Source of the DNA: Sulfurovum sp. UBA12169 | Lineage (GTDB): Bacteria > Campylobacterota > Campylobacteria > Campylobacterales > Sulfurovaceae | DNA length: 64,000 bases | Direction: 5' to 3' | Assembly (NCBI GenBank): GCA_002742845.1 | Contig: DLUH01000001.1 | Coordinates: 308,501 to 372,500, forward strand | Shown here: piece by piece, positions 29,076 through 38,218 of the stretch | Numbering within the stretch: the stretch's first letter is position 1 | Layout: each line of letters begins with the position of its first letter | The notes under the pieces: generated by a model | The model's database searches: none | Told to the model about the DNA's origin: nothing | Seen by the model: only the letters and a program-made list of their open reading frames with translations | Program-made: the position numbers and the translations under genes

Positions 29076-30047
29076 TTATTTCTGATGGCCGTATTCTCTT
29101 GCGAGCCTTAACAAAAACGGATTTATTTCATACGTTTTAAAAGCGACTTCCTCAATTCTTTTAGCATTGAAACCGCCCTTGTTGTAGCAGATAACACTAC
29201 AATCATCACCCTCAAGAAATCCGTCAATGGCATGTGTCACAAAATCAAAAGCCATCAAACGGTCATATACCGTAGGATTGCCTCCGCGTTGTATATGCCC
29301 CAGCACAGCGACTCTGGATTCAACGCCTATCTCATTTTCAAACCATTTGGAAATTTGCTGCGCATTGTCTAGGGCTTCAGATACTACGGCTATGAAATAT
29401 CCCCTTCCCTCTTGAATTTGCCTGCGAAAAGTCTTTTTATACTCTTCAAGCTTATAGGGAATCTCAGGAATAAGACACATCTCCGCACCGCTGGTGAGTG
29501 CTGATACCAAAGCCAGATAGCCACAATGACGCCCCATGGTCTCAATGACAAATGCGCGGTTAAAAGAAGAGGCTGTATCGCGAATCGCATCTATGGCGTC
29601 CTTGATCACATTGAGCGCTGTATCAACACCTAAACAATACTCCGTACCTGCAATATCGTTGTCTATAGTAGCAGGGATACCGCAAAAACTGATCCTTTCA
29701 CTCTCCTGGCTTAATTTCTGCATCCCTTTAAAAGAGCCATCACCGCCCAAAACAATGAGGCAGCTTATTTGGTGAATGTTGAGATTTTCGATAGCCTGCT
29801 TACGGTACCTCTCTTCCATGAAGCGTTTAGATCTCGAAGAGCGTATCTTGGTACCGCCTCTGGAGATGATGCCTGCAACATCATGATATCCTACACGATG
29901 GATGTCATTATCTATGAGTCCTTCAAATCCGTTGTAGATAAAGTACGGTACAAAATCCTTTGCAAAACTATACTCAACAAAACGCTTTAATGCAGCATTC
30001 ATTCCGGACACATCTCCGCCCGAGCAAAGTATGGCAATATTTTTCAC
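29076..30047 (-). CDS. pfkA: ATP-dependent 6-phosphofructokinase
   Basis: 323 residues, the standard bacterial PfkA length. Key stretches are GGDVSGMNAAL (11-20), GGTKIRSSRS, GGDGSF at 101-106, PATIDNDIAGTEYCLGVDTALN with the catalytic Asp, ETMGRHCGYLAL and GHIQRGGNPTVYDR. The usual PGMNA is SGMNA here. Most host-associated Campylobacterota lack phosphofructokinase, while some free-living genera have it. Start supported by AAGGG upstream. Transcribed away from the LOG-family gene. Confidence 0.95.
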   Translation of the reverse strand: MKNIAILCSGGDVSGMNAALKRFVEYSFAKDFVPYFIYNGFEGLIDNDIHRVGYHDVAGIISRGGTKIRSSRSKRFMEERYRKQAIENLNIHQISCLIVLGGDGSFKGMQKLSQESERISFCGIPATIDNDIAGTEYCLGVDTALNVIKDAIDAIRDTASSFNRAFVIETMGRHCGYLALVSALTSGAEMCLIPEIPYKLEEYKKTFRRQIQEGRGYFIAVVSEALDNAQQISKWFENEIGVESRVAVLGHIQRGGNPTVYDRLMAFDFVTHAIDGFLEGDDCSVICYNKGGFNAKRIEEVAFKTYEINPFLLRLAREYGHQK

Positions 30048-30217
30048 AGACTACCCTTTCTTTTTTTATAGTATACTTTACCACTATTCAGGAAAGATTT
30101 CAATAAAATACGTATGAACAATATCATGAAACTCATAGTCGTTGCGTGGTAGAATGACTCTTGACGATTACAATGCACCCTGTAAAATTCAAAATACAAA
30201 GAGAGACAAAAAAGAAT

Positions 30218-31102
30218 ATGCACAAAGAACCGAAGAAAAATAAAATTTCTCACAAGTCACGCCTCAAACACAATACAAAAATCGAAGAATATCCTGCCTG
30301 CACAATAGCTTATGAAGATACCGATTTTCTACAGTCAGATGAAGCAAGAAGCGTCAGACTTCATCTTGACTATCTCAAGGCTGAAATAGAAATGATGAAA
30401 CAAGGAGTTAAGCACACCATTGTTGTTTTCGGAAGCACTCGTATTGTCCAATCCAATATTGCATTGGACAGGCTTAAAAAAATTGAAAAAAAACTCGAAA
30501 GCGAACCCCACTCCCCAAAATTGCTAGAGGCCTTAAAACATGCCGAGAGCATGGTGCGAAAAAGCATTTATTATGACGAAGCAAGAAGATTCGGTCAGAT
30601 CGCGGGAAAAGAGGGCAACGGATCACGCCATCCTGCGGTCACCATTATGACAGGAGGAGGTCCGGGGATCATGGAAGCGGCCAACCGAGGAGCCATAGAT
30701 GCAGATGCTAAATCCATAGGGCTCAACATTCAGCTCCCTTTTGAGCAGTCCCCCAACCCCTACATCACTCCGGAACTTTGTTTTGTATTTCACTATTTTG
30801 CTATACGTAAACTTCACTTTCTTAATCGCTCAAAAGCTTTTGTTTTTTTCCCGGGAGGATTTGGAACACTTGATGAACTCTTTGAAGTTCTCACACTTAT
30901 TCAGACCAAAAAAAGTAAACCCATGCCTGTGGTGCTCATCGATAAAATATACTGGCAAAAGGCTATCAATCTTGATTTTCTCATAGAAGAAGGAGTAATT
31001 TCGCGTACAGATACAGATATCATTATCTATGCAGACAATGCGCAAGATGCTTGGGATGCGATTGTGGCATGGCACGCCAAAAACAAAACACCGCTTATTT
31101 AA
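30218..31102 (+). CDS. LOG family protein (TIGR00730-like, nucleotide 5'-monophosphate phosphoribohydrolase type)
   Basis: About 294 residues. GGGPGIMEAANRGA and PGGFGTLDELFEVLTLIQT are the two signatures of the LOG/'lysine decarboxylase' fold, now known to release bases from nucleoside monophosphates. An N-terminal extension of about 70 residues, basic at first and then helical, precedes the core. In-frame starts at 30161 (TTG) and 30173 (ATG) are possible; the ATG at 30218 was chosen because GAGAGACAAAAAAG is the best purine-rich leader. Divergent from pfkA. Confidence 0.9.
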   Translation: MHKEPKKNKISHKSRLKHNTKIEEYPACTIAYEDTDFLQSDEARSVRLHLDYLKAEIEMMKQGVKHTIVVFGSTRIVQSNIALDRLKKIEKKLESEPHSPKLLEALKHAESMVRKSIYYDEARRFGQIAGKEGNGSRHPAVTIMTGGGPGIMEAANRGAIDADAKSIGLNIQLPFEQSPNPYITPELCFVFHYFAIRKLHFLNRSKAFVFFPGGFGTLDELFEVLTLIQTKKSKPMPVVLIDKIYWQKAINLDFLIEEGVISRTDTDIIIYADNAQDAWDAIVAWHAKNKTPLI

Positions 31103-31178
31103 AATAGAAAGGTCAGTACATAACTTTTGATTGTGCAGTTGCGTTAAAAAAATTTATAACAAAGAGGTAAAAAGCAAC

Positions 31179-31206
31179 AAAGCCAAGTTATCGTTAACTT
31201 GGCTTT
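31179..31206 (-). terminator. intrinsic terminator (bidirectional) between LOG gene and small secreted gene
   Basis: AAAGCCAAGTTA (31179-31190) and TAACTTGGCTTT (31195-31206) are perfectly complementary around TCGT. On the minus strand GTTGCTTTTT follows; on the plus strand the T content is low. It most likely ends the minus-strand secreted-protein transcript. Confidence 0.65.
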
Positions 31207-31213
31207 AGAGATT

Positions 31214-31498
31214 TTAGCGTCGACCGCCGCCTCTTGAAGTTGCACCCATACTTCCCATACCGCCTACATTACCCATACTTCCCATACTGTTCATGTGAGA
31301 GTTTGTTCCTTTATAGTAGTTGCCGTTATGGTTTTGGTGTTGAAATTGATTTTTCATTTGACTTTCAGCTGCTCTATTTTCTTGTTTAAGCTGATGCTGA
31401 TAAGAATACTTTCCTGATTCTGCGACAACCTCTTCTGCTACTACTGCAGACGAACCTGCGACCAACAATGTCATTGCGATAAATAAAGTTTTTTTCAT
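31214..31498 (-). CDS. small secreted Gly/Met-rich protein ending GGGRR
   Basis: 94 residues. A clear signal peptide (about 1-21, MKKTLFIAMTLLVAG then VVA cut) precedes a hydrophilic Gln/Asn/His region (YQHQLKQENRAAESQ) and a tail of MGSMG/VGGMG repeats ending in GGGRR. The DNA of the tail has short direct repeats. The protein is not a family I know. AAAGGAAAC gives the ribosome site. Its neighbour at 31580 shares the design and exact last residues, and both lie divergent from a two-component system, which may control them. Confidence 0.8.
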   Translation of the reverse strand: MKKTLFIAMTLLVAGSSAVVAEEVVAESGKYSYQHQLKQENRAAESQMKNQFQHQNHNGNYYKGTNSHMNSMGSMGNVGGMGSMGATSRGGGRR

Positions 31499-31579
31499 GG
31501 TGTTTCCTTTGGAGTGATTTTAATTACAAAAGGAGTATAAAAAAAGAGTGTGAAAATAGTGTGAAACGAAAAAAGAAAA

Positions 31580-31936
31580 TTATCGGCGTCCGCCTCCGCC
31601 TCCGCCGCCCGGGCCGCCCATATTCATGCTTCCTATATTTGGATTTGAAAATCCTTTGTTAAATTTAAAATTGAAGTTGGATTTATTTTCATAATTGTAG
31701 CTTTCTGACTTATCTTTATTTTTAGATTTTTCTGTTTCAGGCAATCCTATTCCGTTGAAATTGCCGTTTTTGTTAAAGATAAAATTTGGCTGTTTTTTTG
31801 GTTTATTGTCTGCAGCTCTGATAAGTTTTTTTGATTTGCCCGTTTTTTGAAGAATAGCGCCAAGCGATTTTTCATTTGCGTATAAAGATACTTGCATGAT
31901 AAGTAAATAGCTTAAAAAAAGACTTATCTTTTTCAT
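31580..31936 (-). CDS. second small secreted protein, Asn-rich, ending GGGRR
   Basis: 118 residues. The signal peptide (about 1-20, cut after LYA) is followed by a basic region, then an Asn/Phe-rich stretch (NFIFNKNGNFNG, KSNFNFKFNKGFSN), and a tail IGSMNMGGPGG with a run of Gly ending in RR. No cysteines. Same layout as the next gene downstream (31214-31498), 81 bases away. Not recognised. The shared C terminus may serve localisation or binding to a surface or metal; that is inference. Confidence 0.78.
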   Translation of the reverse strand: MKKISLFLSYLLIMQVSLYANEKSLGAILQKTGKSKKLIRAADNKPKKQPNFIFNKNGNFNGIGLPETEKSKNKDKSESYNYENKSNFNFKFNKGFSNPNIGSMNMGGPGGGGGGGRR

Positions 31937-32042
31937 ACGTGCGCTTCGCCTTGTTTTTTAAAAGCATTATAATAAAAAAAAATGAATAATGTATGAAATC
32001 TGCTTTTGATTTGTGTGCTATAATTTTAATTTAGGAGTTTTG

Positions 32043-32717
32043 ATGAATATTTTGGTACTAGAAGATGATATTGCCTTATCAGATATCATAGCTGAATACC
32101 TGCGGGACAATCATTTTGTTGTGGATGTCGTATATGACGGAGAAGAGGCATTAAGCCGAGCGTATGAATGCTCTTATGATTTGTATGTACTGGATGTAAA
32201 TGTTCCGGCAATCAAAGGTTTTGATCTTTTAAAAATGCTACGCGACAAAGGCGACACCACGCCTGCTATCTTTATTACTTCTCTTAATGATATTGAAGAT
32301 GTATCTGAAGGTTTTAAAAGCGGCGCGGATGACTATCTCAAAAAACCATTTGAACTGGCTGAACTTCTTTTGCGGATTAAGAACATACAAAAACGATCTT
32401 TTGCCCAGCAGCGTTCATCTGTCATCAAAATAGATAAAAATATCACATTTAATATAGATACCGAGTTGCTGATTGTAGACACTCAGAGTATTGCTTTGCC
32501 GCCCAAAGAACTAAAAGCCCTTAAATACTTTTTACAGCACACCAACACGACCGTTTCTTTCGACGATCTCTATAGAATTATGTGGAATTACGATGAAAAC
32601 GCTTCGGCCGAATCATTAAGAGCGCACATGAAGAACCTAAGAAAATATTTTGCCCCCAACACGATTCAAAATCTTAGGGGTGAGGGTTACAGGTTTATTA
32701 TAAAAGCAGATAATTAA
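32043..32717 (+). CDS. OmpR-family response regulator
   Basis: 224 residues from the ATG at 32043 (AGGAG seven bases upstream; a longer frame from 32013 has no ribosome site). The receiver domain has E7/D8/D9, phospho-acceptor D51 (YVLDVNVP), and Lys of YLKKPFE. The winged-helix DNA-binding domain covers about 125-223, ending GEGYRFI. It overlaps the kinase gene by one base, forming a two-component pair. The divergent promoter region faces two secreted-protein genes, the most obvious candidate targets. Confidence 0.95.
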   Translation: MNILVLEDDIALSDIIAEYLRDNHFVVDVVYDGEEALSRAYECSYDLYVLDVNVPAIKGFDLLKMLRDKGDTTPAIFITSLNDIEDVSEGFKSGADDYLKKPFELAELLLRIKNIQKRSFAQQRSSVIKIDKNITFNIDTELLIVDTQSIALPPKELKALKYFLQHTNTTVSFDDLYRIMWNYDENASAESLRAHMKNLRKYFAPNTIQNLRGEGYRFIIKADN

Positions 32718-33886
32718 TGCAAGCCACAACCAAAAGTGTATTGTTTTTTTTGATTGTATACTTAGGATCCATGAGTATTTTCGGAGCAGGTATCGGATAT
32801 CTTTACTATAGTGATCAAAAAAATGCCCTTATTGAAGAGATGCGGTCCGGCATGCGCAACAAAGCCATCAGCATCAACAGCAGACTTGAATATTATCACG
32901 AAACAAAAAGTGAGAACTTTACATTTTATGATGAGGGATACGGTATAGCCCTCTATGACCAAAACAAACAGCTTATCGCTTCGACATTTGACGATCCTAT
33001 AGATTTTTCAAAACTTTTTTATGCCAACGGATTGGAGTATTATCTTGTTGAGTCTATCTTTAAAGAGTATCTTGGCGTAAAATATATTGTCATTAAACAA
33101 CATCTCTCAACAGAAAAACTCAACAGCATTCTCAAGCAGATCGGCATCATAGCTCTGTTTGGGTTTTCTTTTTTGCTCTTTGTGTCGCTTCTTTTATCCA
33201 AAATTATGCTCTATCCTATCAAAAATCTGATAAATACGCTCAAAACATTTATGAAAAACACTACCCATGAGATGAATACCCCCATCAGCACTATTTTAAT
33301 GAGCTACGAGCACATGGACAAAACAAATCTTACCGAAAAACAATTTCGCGCTCTTTCACGCATAGATATTGCCGCTAAAACGCTTTCGGGACTCTACAGT
33401 GATCTCTCTTTTGTTTCTTTTCATAACTATATCAAATACGAGGACTGCCCTATTGACGTCGAAGAGATTGTTTTGGAGCGCATAAGATACATGGACACCT
33501 TAATTCATTTCAAAGAAATAGACATACAGTATGACTTGCAGCACAAAACGATCAATATGGATAAGAGAAAGCTTATTTTAGTGATTGACAACCTGCTTTC
33601 AAATGCTATCAAATTTTCTAAAAAGAACGGAAAAATAAAAATCATATTGACGGAAAAATACTACAGTATAAAAGACGACGGGATCGGGATTTCAAAAGAA
33701 AATCAAAAAAAGATATTTGAACGCTTTGAATCTTCTCGTCTGCAAGATGGATTTGGAGTGGGACTGGATATTGTCAATCAAATCTGCAAAGAATACAATA
33801 TCCGCATCCAGCTTAATTCTGAAGTCTCAAAAGGGAGCGAGTTTAAACTGATATGGCCGGCTCAGGAAATCCTGCGCCCCGCATAA
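32717..33886 (+). CDS. sensor histidine kinase
   Basis: 389 residues. Transmembrane helices at about 7-27 and 140-160 flank a periplasmic sensor of about 110 residues (with YEKE-like charged stretches and many Tyr). The H-box THEMNTPI has H184. The ATPase domain has NLLSNAIKFS (N box), DDGIGIS (G1) and GFGVGLDIV (G2). No HAMP domain is evident. The style, with H-box TTHEMNTPI, resembles the DccS-like kinases of Campylobacterota, but I cannot confirm that by alignment. Its 3' end overlaps the convergent gene by 25 bases. Confidence 0.93.
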   Translation: MQATTKSVLFFLIVYLGSMSIFGAGIGYLYYSDQKNALIEEMRSGMRNKAISINSRLEYYHETKSENFTFYDEGYGIALYDQNKQLIASTFDDPIDFSKLFYANGLEYYLVESIFKEYLGVKYIVIKQHLSTEKLNSILKQIGIIALFGFSFLLFVSLLLSKIMLYPIKNLINTLKTFMKNTTHEMNTPISTILMSYEHMDKTNLTEKQFRALSRIDIAAKTLSGLYSDLSFVSFHNYIKYEDCPIDVEEIVLERIRYMDTLIHFKEIDIQYDLQHKTINMDKRKLILVIDNLLSNAIKFSKKNGKIKIILTEKYYSIKDDGIGISKENQKKIFERFESSRLQDGFGVGLDIVNQICKEYNIRIQLNSEVSKGSEFKLIWPAQEILRPA

Positions 33887-34296
33887 TAATCGATTTTCCA
33901 AACCTCATTTTTTTTAGAAAAATAAAGTTTTTTTTCTTTTTTATTTTCCGTAAAATGTACCGTCATCCTCTCTTCGCCATTCATTTCAACTTCCACAATC
34001 TGAATTTCCGGCGATATTTTTCTGTAGGCAAGCTCTGCACAGAGAAGTTCTTCTACTTTCTTTAAGGTCTTATCATCCTCTTCTATTTTTTCAAGAAGCG
34101 ATTTAAATACCGGATTTTTCAAAGACAAACGCAACCCGAAAGCCTCGAGCGTCATCCGATACGATGAACCTACCATTAACTCTTTGAGCTTTCCAATCGA
34201 ACCGCCATAAAGCAGTTCGTAATAACGGATGACTATTTCTTCAGGCTTCATTAAAATATCCGTGTTTTTTCTGTCACTCTTGTTTTGCATCGGCAT
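33862..34296 (-). CDS. hypothetical protein, NTF2-like pattern
   Basis: 144 residues, no signal peptide. The opening KPEEIVIRYYELLYGGSIGKLKELM (start of it at about residue 17), then beta strands EIQIVEVEMNGEERMTVHF and KKLYFSKKNEVWKIDYY, fits the NTF2-like/DUF4878 fold (helix, then curved sheet). The family cannot be named with confidence. The start could be the ATG at 34251 instead. It overlaps the kinase gene tail to tail, so the two transcripts are antisense over 25 bases. Confidence 0.75.
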   Translation of the reverse strand: MPMQNKSDRKNTDILMKPEEIVIRYYELLYGGSIGKLKELMVGSSYRMTLEAFGLRLSLKNPVFKSLLEKIEEDDKTLKKVEELLCAELAYRKISPEIQIVEVEMNGEERMTVHFTENKKEKKLYFSKKNEVWKIDYYAGRRIS

Positions 34297-34328
34297 TAAA
34301 AATTATTTTTAGCATCTTTGCCGACAAA

Positions 34329-34892
34329 CTATGCTCTTGCAATGGCAGTCTGAAATGCTTCAAGATGGTTCAAGCTTCCTTCTTTTAAATTTTCATAAAC
34401 ACTAACCACATCAGCTGGCATACCTATGCATGCCTCTTCAAGATCTTTGATGTCTTTAATTTCGATAAGTTCCCCAACTTTAAGCGCATCCAGCAAAGAC
34501 TCTTCTCCGCTCATCATAAGTTCATCATATAGCGTTTGCAAAAGCGGCAGAACAAACTCGCCAACTTTTGTTTCATCCACTTCGGAAACATCTACCCCGT
34601 ACTTGACACAAAGCTCTCTGGCTGAATCCATATGTCTTTGCTCGGAAAGCTGGATGGAGGCAAATGTTTGTTCTTCTGTGTAAATATTTCCCAGCGTGAC
34701 ATATGCATCTCTGGCTACTTTTTCTTCTTGATAGATAAAAAAAAGTTCATCTTTCTGCTCAGCGGTAAGTTCCGATATTTCTTTTGGTCCTTTGGCATAA
34801 GCAGAAGCTGACATGAGTGTCATTGCACCCGCCGCTCCCGTCATCGCCATTTTTGATAAAAAACTTCTGCGGCTTTCAATTTTTTTATTCAT
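34329..34892 (-). CDS. Tat-exported DUF2202 ferritin-like protein
   Basis: 187 residues. The N terminus has SRRSFLSKMAMTGAAGA, a twin-arginine signal, and AYAKG as likely cleavage site. The DUF2202 domain is a four-helix ferritin-like bundle with EEKVARDAY (about 55-63) and SEQRHMDSA as carboxylate/His metal ligands, and a final NHLEAFQTAI. Export through Tat suggests a folded, metal-loaded protein in the periplasm. Role unknown; metal or oxidant handling is plausible. AAAGGAT precedes the ATG. Confidence 0.9.
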   Translation of the reverse strand: MNKKIESRRSFLSKMAMTGAAGAMTLMSASAYAKGPKEISELTAEQKDELFFIYQEEKVARDAYVTLGNIYTEEQTFASIQLSEQRHMDSARELCVKYGVDVSEVDETKVGEFVLPLLQTLYDELMMSGEESLLDALKVGELIEIKDIKDLEEACIGMPADVVSVYENLKEGSLNHLEAFQTAIARA

Positions 34893-35034
34893 TTTGTATC
34901 CTTTTTGTTTATTTGGGAAGCCTATTTTAAAAAGATAGTGTGAAACTGGTATGAAATTAATGCCGAGATTGTTTCACCCATCTAATCATTTTTTTTCTTT
35001 TCACAAACTACAAGCCAAATCAAGCCAAAAAACC

Positions 35035-35226
35035 TTAAGAAGAAATTAATCCAAAGCGGCACTCTCCAAGCGTAACAATCTTGCCTTTTTGCAGTTGTGC
35101 AAGGATGTACTTCAGTGTTGATTCTGCATCGGTTTGGGGCATTTCTTCTTGGATAATACGCAGTGCTTGCTCTTTGGTGGTTTTTGACCATTTTTTTTCG
35201 TAGATATATCGGGTATAAAACTCCAC
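35035..35226 (-). CDS. hypothetical small protein (63 residues)
   Basis: A soluble small protein with helices KTTKEQALRIIQEEMP and AESTLKYILAQLQKGKIVTLGE and ending FGLISS. The frame extends to a TTG at 35253 inside the upstream gene, but GTG at 35226 has AGGAA just before it and lies five bases past the neighbour's stop, so it is preferred. Not recognised. Probably co-transcribed with the 71-residue gene. Confidence 0.6.
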   Translation of the reverse strand: MEFYTRYIYEKKWSKTTKEQALRIIQEEMPQTDAESTLKYILAQLQKGKIVTLGECRFGLISS

Positions 35227-35230
35227 GTTC

Positions 35231-35446
35231 CTATACCCATCCCAATTCTGCAAAAATAGGCTCTATTTCCACCCACCACTGCTCCAGTCTGACAGCAACA
35301 TCATTGATGGCATTTTCTTCTTCTTTCCACTCTTTGAGCTTTTCGATAACGGCAGGCTTAATCTCTTGTGAAATTTGATCTGAATGTTCAATATGTTCAA
35401 TGGTTTCTTCTATTTTTTGCTTCACGGCATACTCCTTTTTTGTCAT
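35231..35446 (-). CDS. hypothetical helical protein (71 residues)
   Basis: Highly charged and predicted all helical (KQKIEETIEHIEHSDQIS then VIEKLKEWKEEENAINDVA), ending with an aromatic WWVEIEPIFAELGWV. Reads like a small coiled-coil or helical hairpin. AAAAGGAG sits five bases before the ATG, so translation is well supported. Not recognised as a named family. Divergent from valS. Confidence 0.75.
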   Translation of the reverse strand: MTKKEYAVKQKIEETIEHIEHSDQISQEIKPAVIEKLKEWKEEENAINDVAVRLEQWWVEIEPIFAELGWV

Positions 35447-35521
35447 TGTATTTCATTATGATAGGATTGTCAATAGAAGATAAAGTCTACTTTTCCCAAC
35501 TCCATAAAAGCACCAATACGC

Positions 35522-35527
35522 TATAAT
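35522..35527 (+). promoter_or_regulatory. candidate -10 box for valS
   Basis: TATAAT, 36 bases before the valS ATG, in the divergent region. No clear -35. Confidence 0.5.
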
Positions 35528-35563
35528 CCAGGCAATACTATAACCTACAAATGGAATATACCT

Positions 35564-38218
35564 ATGAGTGAAACAACAAAAAAAGCTGTCTACAACCCAA
35601 AAGAAATAGAGGAACACTACTATAAAATCTGGGAAGAACGCGGTTATTTTGAAATTGACGGAAACCGTAACATACAAGAACCGGATAAACATTTTGCCAT
35701 CATGATGCCCCCGCCAAACATCACCGGAAGCTTGCATATCGGCCATGCCCTAACCTTTACGCTGCAGGATATTATCACACGCTATAAAAGAATGGACGGT
35801 TTCAAGACCCTTTGGCAGCCCGGTACCGATCATGCGGGTATCGCTACACAGAATGTCGTGGAAAAACATCTTTTGGCCGAAGGAACTACCAAAGAGGCGC
35901 TCGGCAGAGAGGCATTTTTGGAGCGTGTCTGGAAATGGAAAGAGTACTCAGGCGGAACCATCGTACATCAGATGAGAAAACTCGGCGTCTCTCCGGCTTG
36001 GTCAAGAGAGAGATTTACGATGGATGAGGGTCTTAAAGAAGCGGTTAAAGAGGCTTTCGTTCACCTCTACAATGAAGGGATGATCGTCCAGAACAACTAT
36101 ATGGTCAACTGGTGTACGCATGACGGCGCCCTTTCAGACATCGAAGTCGAACATGAAGAAGTTAACGGCAAATTCTACCATATGAATTACCATTTTGCCG
36201 ACGGAAGCGGATATGTCACGGTTGCAACCACAAGGCCGGAGACTTACTTTGGCGATACCGCGATCATGGTAAATCCCAACGACGAGAGATACAAAAACAT
36301 CATAGGCAAAGAGGTTGTCTTGCCGCTGACGGATAGAAAGATCAAGGTCATTGCAGATGAGCATGTCGATATGGAATTTGGAACGGGGGTCGTGAAAGTC
36401 ACGCCTGCGCACGACCAGAACGACTACGAAGTCGGAAAAAGACATGATCTTGAGTTCATCACCGTATTTGACGAGAAAGGCATCCTGAATGACTACTGCG
36501 GCGAATTTGCAGGGATGGAGAGGCTAAAAGCCAGAAAGCCGATCGTAGAGAAATTGGAGCGTGAAGGATTTATCGTCAAGATCGAAGAGCATGTCCATCA
36601 GGTCGGCCACTGCTACCGGTGCAAAAACATCGTCGAACCGTATATCTCCAAACAGTGGTTTGTACGCAGCGAAGTGGCAAAAAAAAGTATCGAAAAAACC
36701 TATGCAGGGGAAGCGAAGTTCCACCCGCCGCATTGGCTCAATTCTTACCGTGCATGGATGGACGAACTCAGAGACTGGTGCATCTCCAGACAGCTTTGGT
36801 GGGGACACCGCATCCCTGTATTTTACTGCGACGACTGCGGTCACCAGTGGGCAGACAAGCATGACGCTCCTGAATCCTGCCCGCACTGTGCAAGCAAAAA
36901 TATCCATCAAGACCCCGATGTGCTCGACACATGGTTCTCCTCGGCCCTTTGGGCTTTCTCTCCGCTTGGCTGGGGAAATAACGGAAAAATGGCCGATACT
37001 TACAATGATACAGATCTGAAAGATTTCTACCCCAACTCGCTGCTGATCACGGGGTTTGACATCATGTTCTTCTGGGTGGCAAGGATGATGATGATGGGTG
37101 AACACTTTATGGGAGAATTGCCGTTTAAAGATATCTATATGCACGCGCTTGTGCGCGACGAGTACGGGGCCAAAATGAGCAAGTCCAAAGGAAATGTCAT
37201 CGATCCTCTGGATATGGTCGAAGAGCACAGTGCAGATATCATCCGCTTTACCCTCGCATTCCTTGCAGTTCAGGGACGCGATATCAAACTGGGCGCGAAG
37301 AACCTTGAACAGTTCAGAAACTTCACCAACAAGCTTTACAATGCAAGCAACTTCCTGCAGATGAATGTAGATAAGTTTAATGATCTTGCTGATACGAAAA
37401 TTGAAACACCCCTTGGTCATTATATGCAATATAGATTATCTCTTGCAGTTGAAGAAATGAGAGATGCTTTGGATTCATATCGTTTTAATGATGCTGCTTC
37501 AATCCTCTACAGATTTGTATGGAATGAGTTTTGTGACTGGGGAATAGAATACTCCAAAGCCTCTAAAGAGTCTATTCCTGAACTTGGAGCTATCTTTAAA
37601 GAAACTTTGAAAATGATCTCACCGTTTATGCCATTTATTGCAGATCATTTGTATCATAAATTGAGTGGGACTTCATTGGAAGAAGGTGAATCTTTGATGA
37701 TAAAAAAATTTCCTAATGATATCCATAGAACAATAATTTATGATAATCTCTTTTCACATATTGAAGAGGCGATTACTGCTATTAGAAGAGCAAAAGTTGT
37801 TATCGATATGGGTAACAGCAAAATAGCTAAAGCATATATCAAATCAAATCTTATAAGCAATGACCCAACAAAATTATTTAGTATTCAAACTGTAAAACCA
37901 TTTATCCAAAAGCTTGCAAAAGTTGAAGATGTTGAGTTGGTTGATACGAAAGTAGAAAATGCTGTTACTGATATTGCAGATACTCTTGAAGTCTATATTC
38001 CGACCGAGGATATCGATCTAAGCGCCATCATAAGCAAACTGGCCAAACAAAAAGAAAAATTGGATAAAGAGATCGCCAAACTCAGCGGCATGCTCAACAA
38101 TGAAAGATTTGTAGCCAATGCCCCCGCGCAAGTGATCTCAGAGAACAAACAGGCACTTCAGGACGCTCAGGAAAAGATGGATAAAGTCAAAGCAGAGCTT
38201 CAAGGACTTGGTGCATAA
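35564..38218 (+). CDS. valS: valyl-tRNA synthetase
   Basis: Charges tRNA-Val. 884 residues, normal length. HIGH motif in PPPNITGSLHIGHAL (about 50-64), the editing domain in the middle (TTRPETYFGDTA, GTGVVKVTPAHDQND), GTDHAGIATQ, KMSKS at 537-541, an anticodon-binding domain, and the C-terminal coiled coil (LAKQKEKLDKEIAKL). The ORF is intact. Base use changes inside the gene: about half G+C to about 37,360, near one third from about 37,370 to 37,990, then higher again. This looks like replacement of the anticodon-binding part by homologous recombination with a relative (see finding). Confidence 0.97.
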   Translation: MSETTKKAVYNPKEIEEHYYKIWEERGYFEIDGNRNIQEPDKHFAIMMPPPNITGSLHIGHALTFTLQDIITRYKRMDGFKTLWQPGTDHAGIATQNVVEKHLLAEGTTKEALGREAFLERVWKWKEYSGGTIVHQMRKLGVSPAWSRERFTMDEGLKEAVKEAFVHLYNEGMIVQNNYMVNWCTHDGALSDIEVEHEEVNGKFYHMNYHFADGSGYVTVATTRPETYFGDTAIMVNPNDERYKNIIGKEVVLPLTDRKIKVIADEHVDMEFGTGVVKVTPAHDQNDYEVGKRHDLEFITVFDEKGILNDYCGEFAGMERLKARKPIVEKLEREGFIVKIEEHVHQVGHCYRCKNIVEPYISKQWFVRSEVAKKSIEKTYAGEAKFHPPHWLNSYRAWMDELRDWCISRQLWWGHRIPVFYCDDCGHQWADKHDAPESCPHCASKNIHQDPDVLDTWFSSALWAFSPLGWGNNGKMADTYNDTDLKDFYPNSLLITGFDIMFFWVARMMMMGEHFMGELPFKDIYMHALVRDEYGAKMSKSKGNVIDPLDMVEEHSADIIRFTLAFLAVQGRDIKLGAKNLEQFRNFTNKLYNASNFLQMNVDKFNDLADTKIETPLGHYMQYRLSLAVEEMRDALDSYRFNDAASILYRFVWNEFCDWGIEYSKASKESIPELGAIFKETLKMISPFMPFIADHLYHKLSGTSLEEGESLMIKKFPNDIHRTIIYDNLFSHIEEAITAIRRAKVVIDMGNSKIAKAYIKSNLISNDPTKLFSIQTVKPFIQKLAKVEDVELVDTKVENAVTDIADTLEVYIPTEDIDLSAIISKLAKQKEKLDKEIAKLSGMLNNERFVANAPAQVISENKQALQDAQEKMDKVKAELQGLGA

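Follow-up and report, generated by a model that had tools for sequence, protein, structure and literature searches.

P1 and P2, two small secreted glycine-rich proteins of Sulfurovum sp. UBA12169, and a nearby DUF2202 gene are well supported by sequence evidence as putative targets of the adjacent two-component system, the response regulator RR-A and the histidine kinase HK-A (system A), via a common promoter element termed box A. An earlier note on this DNA had proposed P1 and P2 as likely targets of the pair, which is well borne out by a conserved promoter box together with co-occurrence with the kinase; the predicted regulon is wider than these two proteins, with the DUF2202 gene added. By its regulator and kinase type, the layout of its box and the kind of its targets, system A appears to be a DccRS-like two-component regulon with new families of small exported proteins.

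Organization of the locus

The locus lies in a window of 64,000 nucleotides, the whole stretch of DNA that was analysed, from a genome of 1.86 Mb in 5 contigs. The P1 and P2 genes are divergent from the RR-A/HK-A pair (Table 1), which Pfam domains identify as an OmpR-family regulator and a membrane histidine kinase. The RR-A reading frame extends upstream to a GTG at 32013; relatives start with MNILxLEDD, and the gene is given here from 32043. The structural model of HK-A predicts a small, mainly β periplasmic domain at about residues 65 to 130, and a fold search with HK-A returned mostly kinase cores, whose matches gave no name to the sensor domain. Rfam search of positions 30000 to 36000 yielded no matches. 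A generic promoter scan gave 14 matches versus 12.1 in shuffled sequences, which is no excess, and a repeat search missed the short boxes in the P1 and P2 promoters. The genome also harbors paralogous regulator-kinase pairs, one beside small c-type cytochromes (locus L140, 4740-6558) and two consecutive pairs elsewhere (L141, 3006-6414).

Table 1. Features of the P1/P2 locus, in coordinates of the window.
Feature	Position	Strand	Basis and remarks
Terminator-like hairpin, 13 pairs and T-run, directly 3' of P1	31178..31207	-	Consensus match only
P1, 94-aa secreted protein	31214..31498	-	Signal peptide, Q/N/H-rich body, Met-Gly repeats, GGGRR end; translation and relatives
Box A upstream of P1, TTCACACTATTTTCACACTCTTTTTTTATACT	31534..31565	-	0 mismatches
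P2, 118-aa secreted protein	31580..31936	-	Signal peptide, Lys-rich body with YxYxNKSxFxFxF, Gly-rich GGGRR end; translation and relatives
Box A upstream of P2, TTCATACATTATTCATTTTTTTTTATTATAAT	31966..31997	-	2 mismatches
RR-A, OmpR-type response regulator	32043..32717	+	Pfam Response_reg, Trans_reg_C
HK-A, sensor histidine kinase	32717..33886	+	Pfam HisKA, HATPase_c; HEMNTP motif at H184
144-aa conserved companion gene	33862..34296	-	Adjoins DUF2202 gene in relatives; no family above cut-off
DUF2202 protein with Tat-like leader, presumed ferritin-like by relation to MJ0754	34329..34892	-	Pfam 104.9 bits
Box A upstream of DUF2202 gene, TTCATACCAGTTTCACACTATCTTTTTAAAAT	34924..34955	-	1 mismatch

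A conserved tandem repeat upstream of P1, P2 and the DUF2202 gene

Box A, which was first seen as the same element upstream of the P1 and of the P2 genes of relatives, reads TTCAYAC-N4-TTCAYAC-N8-TATAMT: two units 11 bp apart, separated by 8 bp from the -10 element and spanning the -35 region. Tandem sites with an 11-bp period over the -35 region are typical of OmpR/PhoB-type activators. The window contains three sites with at most 3 mismatches against 0.07 expected, and none of 100 shuffles reached three. In kinase-positive genomes, box A precedes 16 of 16 P2 genes (15 with at most 2 mismatches and that of genome G056 with 3), all 13 plain DUF2202 genes and, at a distance of at most 250 bp, 12 of 13 P1 genes. 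In 175 control regions upstream of reading frames of at least 150 residues at these loci, the best match most often had 8 mismatches. The P2 box of the source species, with its 2 mismatches, is among the weaker ones. In G101 the box lies 278 bp upstream of P1, judging by the coordinates, and in G037 and G056 P1 is distant from the kinase yet retains its box. Genome-wide, 150 sites were found in 15 kinase-positive versus 44 in 15 kinase-negative genomes (reversed-pattern control, 7 and 3 sites, respectively), with a median of 3 box-A-like sites in the kinase-negative ones; these box counts, like the co-occurrence counts below, are inflated by related sequences. Box A also precedes P1 or HH peptides (see below) in G004, G100 and G030, where HK-A was undetected, and therefore another regulator may use it.

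The repeats could alternatively be DnaA boxes, as the available text of PMC5043019 gives TTCAC as the core of the epsilonproteobacterial DnaA box, in which case P1 and P2 would be tied to replication instead of being controlled by the adjacent regulator. This is extremely improbable, and the DnaA reading was set aside: of 32 sites, TTCAT forms the first half-site in 21 and the second in 16, the 11-bp period is kept in 14 of 14 P2 regions tested, and the repeat keeps a constant spacing of 8 bp from the -10 element.

As a regulator's binding site, box A resembles the DccR box, wTTCAC-N6-TTCACw over the -35 region, in unit, spacing and tandem 11-bp period, but differs in that TTCAT half-sites are as frequent as or commoner than TTCAC. 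The two systems also share an OmpR-type regulator with a kinase, and few targets that are exported or membrane proteins. The DccRS system of C. jejuni (Cj1223c-Cj1222c) is described in PMC9449129 and PMC7118207 as having a small regulon, made up of proteins thought to be periplasmic or membrane-bound, whereas the candidate targets here are P1, P2 and the DUF2202 protein. A scan of genome contigs retrieved loci of the same kind mostly from Sulfurovum, with no Campylobacter among the matches.

P2 co-occurs with the kinase

The HK-A orthologues form a sharp group in 15 of 78 genomes of the genus, scoring 666-726 bits with the next match at 290. Profile searches of the 78 Sulfurovum genomes detected P2 in 18 and P1 in 21. 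P2 is present in all 15 HK-A-positive genomes compared to 3 of the 63 HK-A-negative ones (Fisher p 2e-13, with genomes treated as independent and kinship ignored). The three kinase-negative matches are a P2 broken by a frameshift in G030, one without tail and box in G054, and a weak match in G020 (E 1.5e-5), which is doubtful yet was counted. In the P1 search, the matches in G104:C121, G049 and G115 were weak (E 1.6e-4 to 8.4e-4); G104 and G115 were left out of the P1 count, and G049 was retained because its neighbourhood and tail fit. The P2 remnants lie at L033 215-862 (G030), where the boxes are still present, and at L105 5326-5754 (G054).

P2 is divergent from RR-A in all HK-A loci read, and P1 comes next after P2 in most. 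On the far side of HK-A, most loci have the DUF2202 gene, usually with the 144-aa companion. In G037, P2 and P1 are separated by genes for an outer-membrane barrel protein and a choice-of-anchor O lipoprotein (L026, 5232-9072). The cultured Sulfurovum sp. AR carries the locus as well (L041). A sixteenth HK-A locus, L040 (identical to L255), was found in a metagenome-assembled genome (MAG) assigned to another family. Across the order, 8 of 398 genomes have an HK-A match at E up to 1e-88, four of them high and four lower-scoring kin. The high ones comprise three within the genus and G262, on the same contig as L040; G262 is the MAG of another family and has 7% contamination, so this may be a stray contig. 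The four lower-scoring kin (310-330 bits) have neither box A nor P1 or P2 in the short flanks read.

The constant divergent placement of P2, and a presence and loss that track the kinase, would also suit a feedback or accessory partner of HK-A, induced by the system and binding the sensor domain to set its activity, as CpxP does for CpxA. The arrangement indeed recalls CpxRA-CpxP, in which a gene for a small exported protein is divergent from the regulator and kinase genes. We find such a role rather doubtful: an ordinary target would be just as likely to lie divergently, P1 has the same box A but occurs without HK-A, and Pfam detects no resemblance of P1 or P2 to the CpxP/Spy family. Moreover, CpxP has a helical fold, whereas P2 is predicted to be disordered and glycine-rich (mean pLDDT 58.5, pTM 0.17).

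P1 and P2 carry variable glycine-rich basic tails

Consistent with the earlier description of a secreted pair, P1 and P2 each possess a Sec-type signal sequence, a polar body and a GGGRR end directly before the stop codon. Cysteines, a lipobox and a second hydrophobic helix are all absent from their sequences, which agrees with the remark that the tail comes without a membrane helix. The MG(S/N)MGG repeats ascribed to both are clear in P1 of the source species and its closest relative, whereas P2 has only about one unit; methionine is scarce in most relatives. Neither protein matches a Pfam or NCBIfam family above the cut-off. P1 shares with the Pfam family GRP (PF07172) a signal peptide followed by a glycine-rich body (E 0.0037), but its 18.3 bits against a gathering cut-off of 30 reflect a compositional likeness only. 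An alignment of P1 with P2 by hhalign is confined to the signal peptides, so homology of the two was rejected. Nothing above chance level was retrieved from the PDB with the profile of P2 (best E 0.02). Mature P2 is strongly basic (net charge +6 to +16, n=14), and mature P1 mildly so (+2 to +8, n=13).

The Gly-Gly-Gly-Arg-Arg-stop pattern occurs at three places in the 1.86-Mb genome, namely P1, P2 and a site inside a long reading frame; by its coordinates the third is out of frame, which leaves P1 and P2 as the only proteins found with that end. Among orthologues, GGGRR terminates 9 of 16 P2 proteins (14 plus G107 and L040) and 2 of 14 P1 proteins (13 plus G105), while GGGRH terminates 8 of 14 P1 proteins; GRGNR, GGKGR, GEKGR and GRGGR also occur, and the length of the tail varies too. 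The final residue is R or H in 30 of 30 orthologues, with glycine before or near it, so that glycine-richness and a terminal R or H are the only constant features. The claim that the last five residues are a sorting signal is not upheld by tails that vary in this way, and a fixed GGGRR signal was rejected. Free variation of the tails had been named as evidence against that claim, and what was found comes near to it, exact GGGRR being retained in part of the orthologues only.

Another reading, in which a dedicated protein recognises the GGGRR tail as a genuine signal for sorting or anchoring, appears unlikely. It would account for a tail common to two non-homologous adjacent secreted proteins and for the R or H that ends every orthologue; in addition, 31 of 2,488 distinct reading frames, a biased sample consisting of the window and the fetched loci, have both a tail of this kind and a crude signal peptide, and nearly all of these are P1 or P2. 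GlyGly-CTERM and JDVT-CTERM proteins are likewise secreted and have a conserved-looking end with glycines and basic residues. By contrast, P1 and P2 lack a transmembrane helix before the basic end, their tails differ in length and residues, and neither matches the GlyGly-CTERM or JDVT-CTERM models of NCBIfam. No dedicated sorting protease was found in the window, and the JDVT-CTERM/MrtJ system near several relatives' loci uses a quite different signal. Instead, the tail may be a disordered cationic end that is loosely kept rather than a sorting signal or address tag, a guess from its composition, and the retained glycine-richness and terminal R or H would fit a role in binding or electrostatic contacts. 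Because the bodies of P1 and P2 cannot be aligned, the likeness of their tails would be convergent or of low-complexity origin. A five-residue tail common to two proteins of one genome should thus not be equated with a sorting signal.

The JDVT-CTERM choice-of-anchor F proteins near the HK-A loci of relatives are located at L028 753-3085, L030 1667-3882 and L032 12177-13940, outside the window, and the protease MrtJ was identified in L028 and L030. Glycine-rich or basic ends (RKGQGK and GRGQGK) were also observed in c-type-cytochrome-like proteins at L139 3614-4054 and L075 390-833, with two-component genes on the same loci.

Further genes behind box A

The DUF2202 protein scores above its 22-bit Pfam cut-off and is related to MJ0754 (E 4e-24), which we take to have a ferritin-like fold and on that basis call the DUF2202 protein ferritin-like. 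In several relatives, box A also precedes members of an unannotated family of secreted peptides of 44-48 residues, termed HH peptides; in their mature form they are predicted to be about 25 residues long and to start with His-His. These occur in five kinase-positive (G003, G105, G107, G027 and G116) and five kinase-negative genomes (G004, G100, G029, G047 and G038), and a family search found none in the source genome; eight matches with E >1e-3, mostly to the signal peptide, were dismissed as chance. They have no Pfam or NCBIfam match. HH peptides lie behind box A or box B (the repeat of a second system, see below), often in tandem, at L178 3079-3225, L180 2789-3082, L183 2620-2908, L186 2631-2777, L187 2685-2822, L190 1851-1985, L193 and L199-L201.

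A second DUF2202 lipoprotein of G003 also has box A upstream, as does, with a perfect match in one genome only, a CueO-like multicopper oxidase (L192 1864-3380, G057). A second oxidase-like gene nearby in G057 has TGCACAC repeats instead, perhaps the box of another regulator. The source genome has five further box A sites with 1-2 mismatches, weaker than the main ones, upstream of a small lipoprotein, a gene that we presume from its sequence to be LpxC-like, a large lipoprotein, a 193-aa exported protein and a 129-aa protein; one of them is also present in the kinase-negative G034. The genes behind box A thus encode mostly exported proteins (P1, P2 and DUF2202 in the window; HH peptides, lipoproteins and the oxidase in relatives), although some of the weaker sites in the source genome precede non-exported genes. 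If these assignments are correct, two orphan protein families, tiny uncalled peptides and DUF2202 would gain a common regulatory context.

Several of these genes suggest a defence of the envelope against metal or oxidative stress, with P1, P2 and HH peptides binding copper or iron, and the DUF2202 protein and the oxidase detoxifying. A DUF2202 gene with a ferritin-like relative under box A, the CueO-like oxidase behind a perfect site, the His-His start of the predicted mature HH peptides, and the 4 His and 6 Met of the window's P1 are consistent with it. Yet the His and Met of P1 and P2 are unconserved among relatives, for which reason metal binding by these proteins was rejected as the sole explanation, and the oxidase site is confined to a single genome. 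In C. jejuni, according to a review (PMC7118207), copper does not activate DccRS. Such a defence regulon is possible but not favoured, and metal or oxidative stress remains a fair rival as the signal for system A.

We consider it probable that the kinase senses, that the regulator activates P1, P2 and the DUF2202 gene via box A, and that P1 and P2 loosely bind polymers of the envelope or matrix. Conserved genes that co-occur and share a promoter box are what is observed, and around them the following steps are proposed. HK-A would sense an envelope or extracellular condition and phosphorylate RR-A, which would bind TTCAYAC-N4-TTCAYAC with its 11-bp period over the -35 region and activate the DUF2202 operon together with P1 and P2; in relatives its targets would include other exported proteins. 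P1 and P2, being short, cationic, disordered and of low complexity, would be exported by the Sec route and remain soluble. Their Gly/Arg-rich ends may then act as flexible basic tails that bind loosely to acidic polymers of the envelope or matrix, and the presumably ferritin-like DUF2202 protein would act alongside them.

A second two-component system beside similar genes

In other Sulfurovum genomes, a different repeat, box B (GTAACA-N5-GTAACA), is located at the same distance from the -10 element as box A. It replaces box A at the P1-like genes of G103, G049, G058, G056, G014, G029 and G016 (the last with 1 mismatch), and the HH peptides of G047 and G029 have box B and no box A. Sites of the form GTAACAAAATTGTAATAC, which resemble phosphate boxes, were left uncounted in the box B search. 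A second kinase, HK-B (about 328 aa), is paired with the regulator RR-B (about 209 aa), and in 16 of 16 genomes read the repeat is found where the HK-B gene ends or immediately behind it; a DUF2202 gene comes next in 13 of these (G016, G014, G001, G047, G106, G103, G056, G058, G049, G002, G053, G059 and G029). HK-B exceeds 400 bits in 21 of the 78 genomes of the genus; the source genome has neither an HK-B match nor box B. The recognition regions of the two regulators differ, SLRAHIKNLRK in relatives of RR-A versus ALRVNITKLKK in RR-B.

The same kinds of genes thus occur with a different repeat beside a second two-component system, so the target set has apparently changed its regulator. The exceptions to a one-to-one rule of box and system are G004, G100 and G030, which have box A with HK-A undetected. 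We lean slightly towards a portable exported set of P1-type, DUF2202 and HH-peptide genes that is conserved together as one envelope unit while the regulator is exchanged, under system A and box A in some Sulfurovum lineages, under the non-orthologous system B and box B in others, and with both in a few. In the literature searched, no description of such a set was found, nor any report on a Sulfurovum two-component system with glycine-rich proteins. If true, such a swap of regulators, in which a new binding site takes the promoter position of the old one, would offer a clean case for studying regulon rewiring. At L036, L134, L135, L137 and L243-L254, a 264-aa predicted outer-membrane protein precedes RR-B/HK-B and a DUF2202 lipoprotein follows, with box B between.
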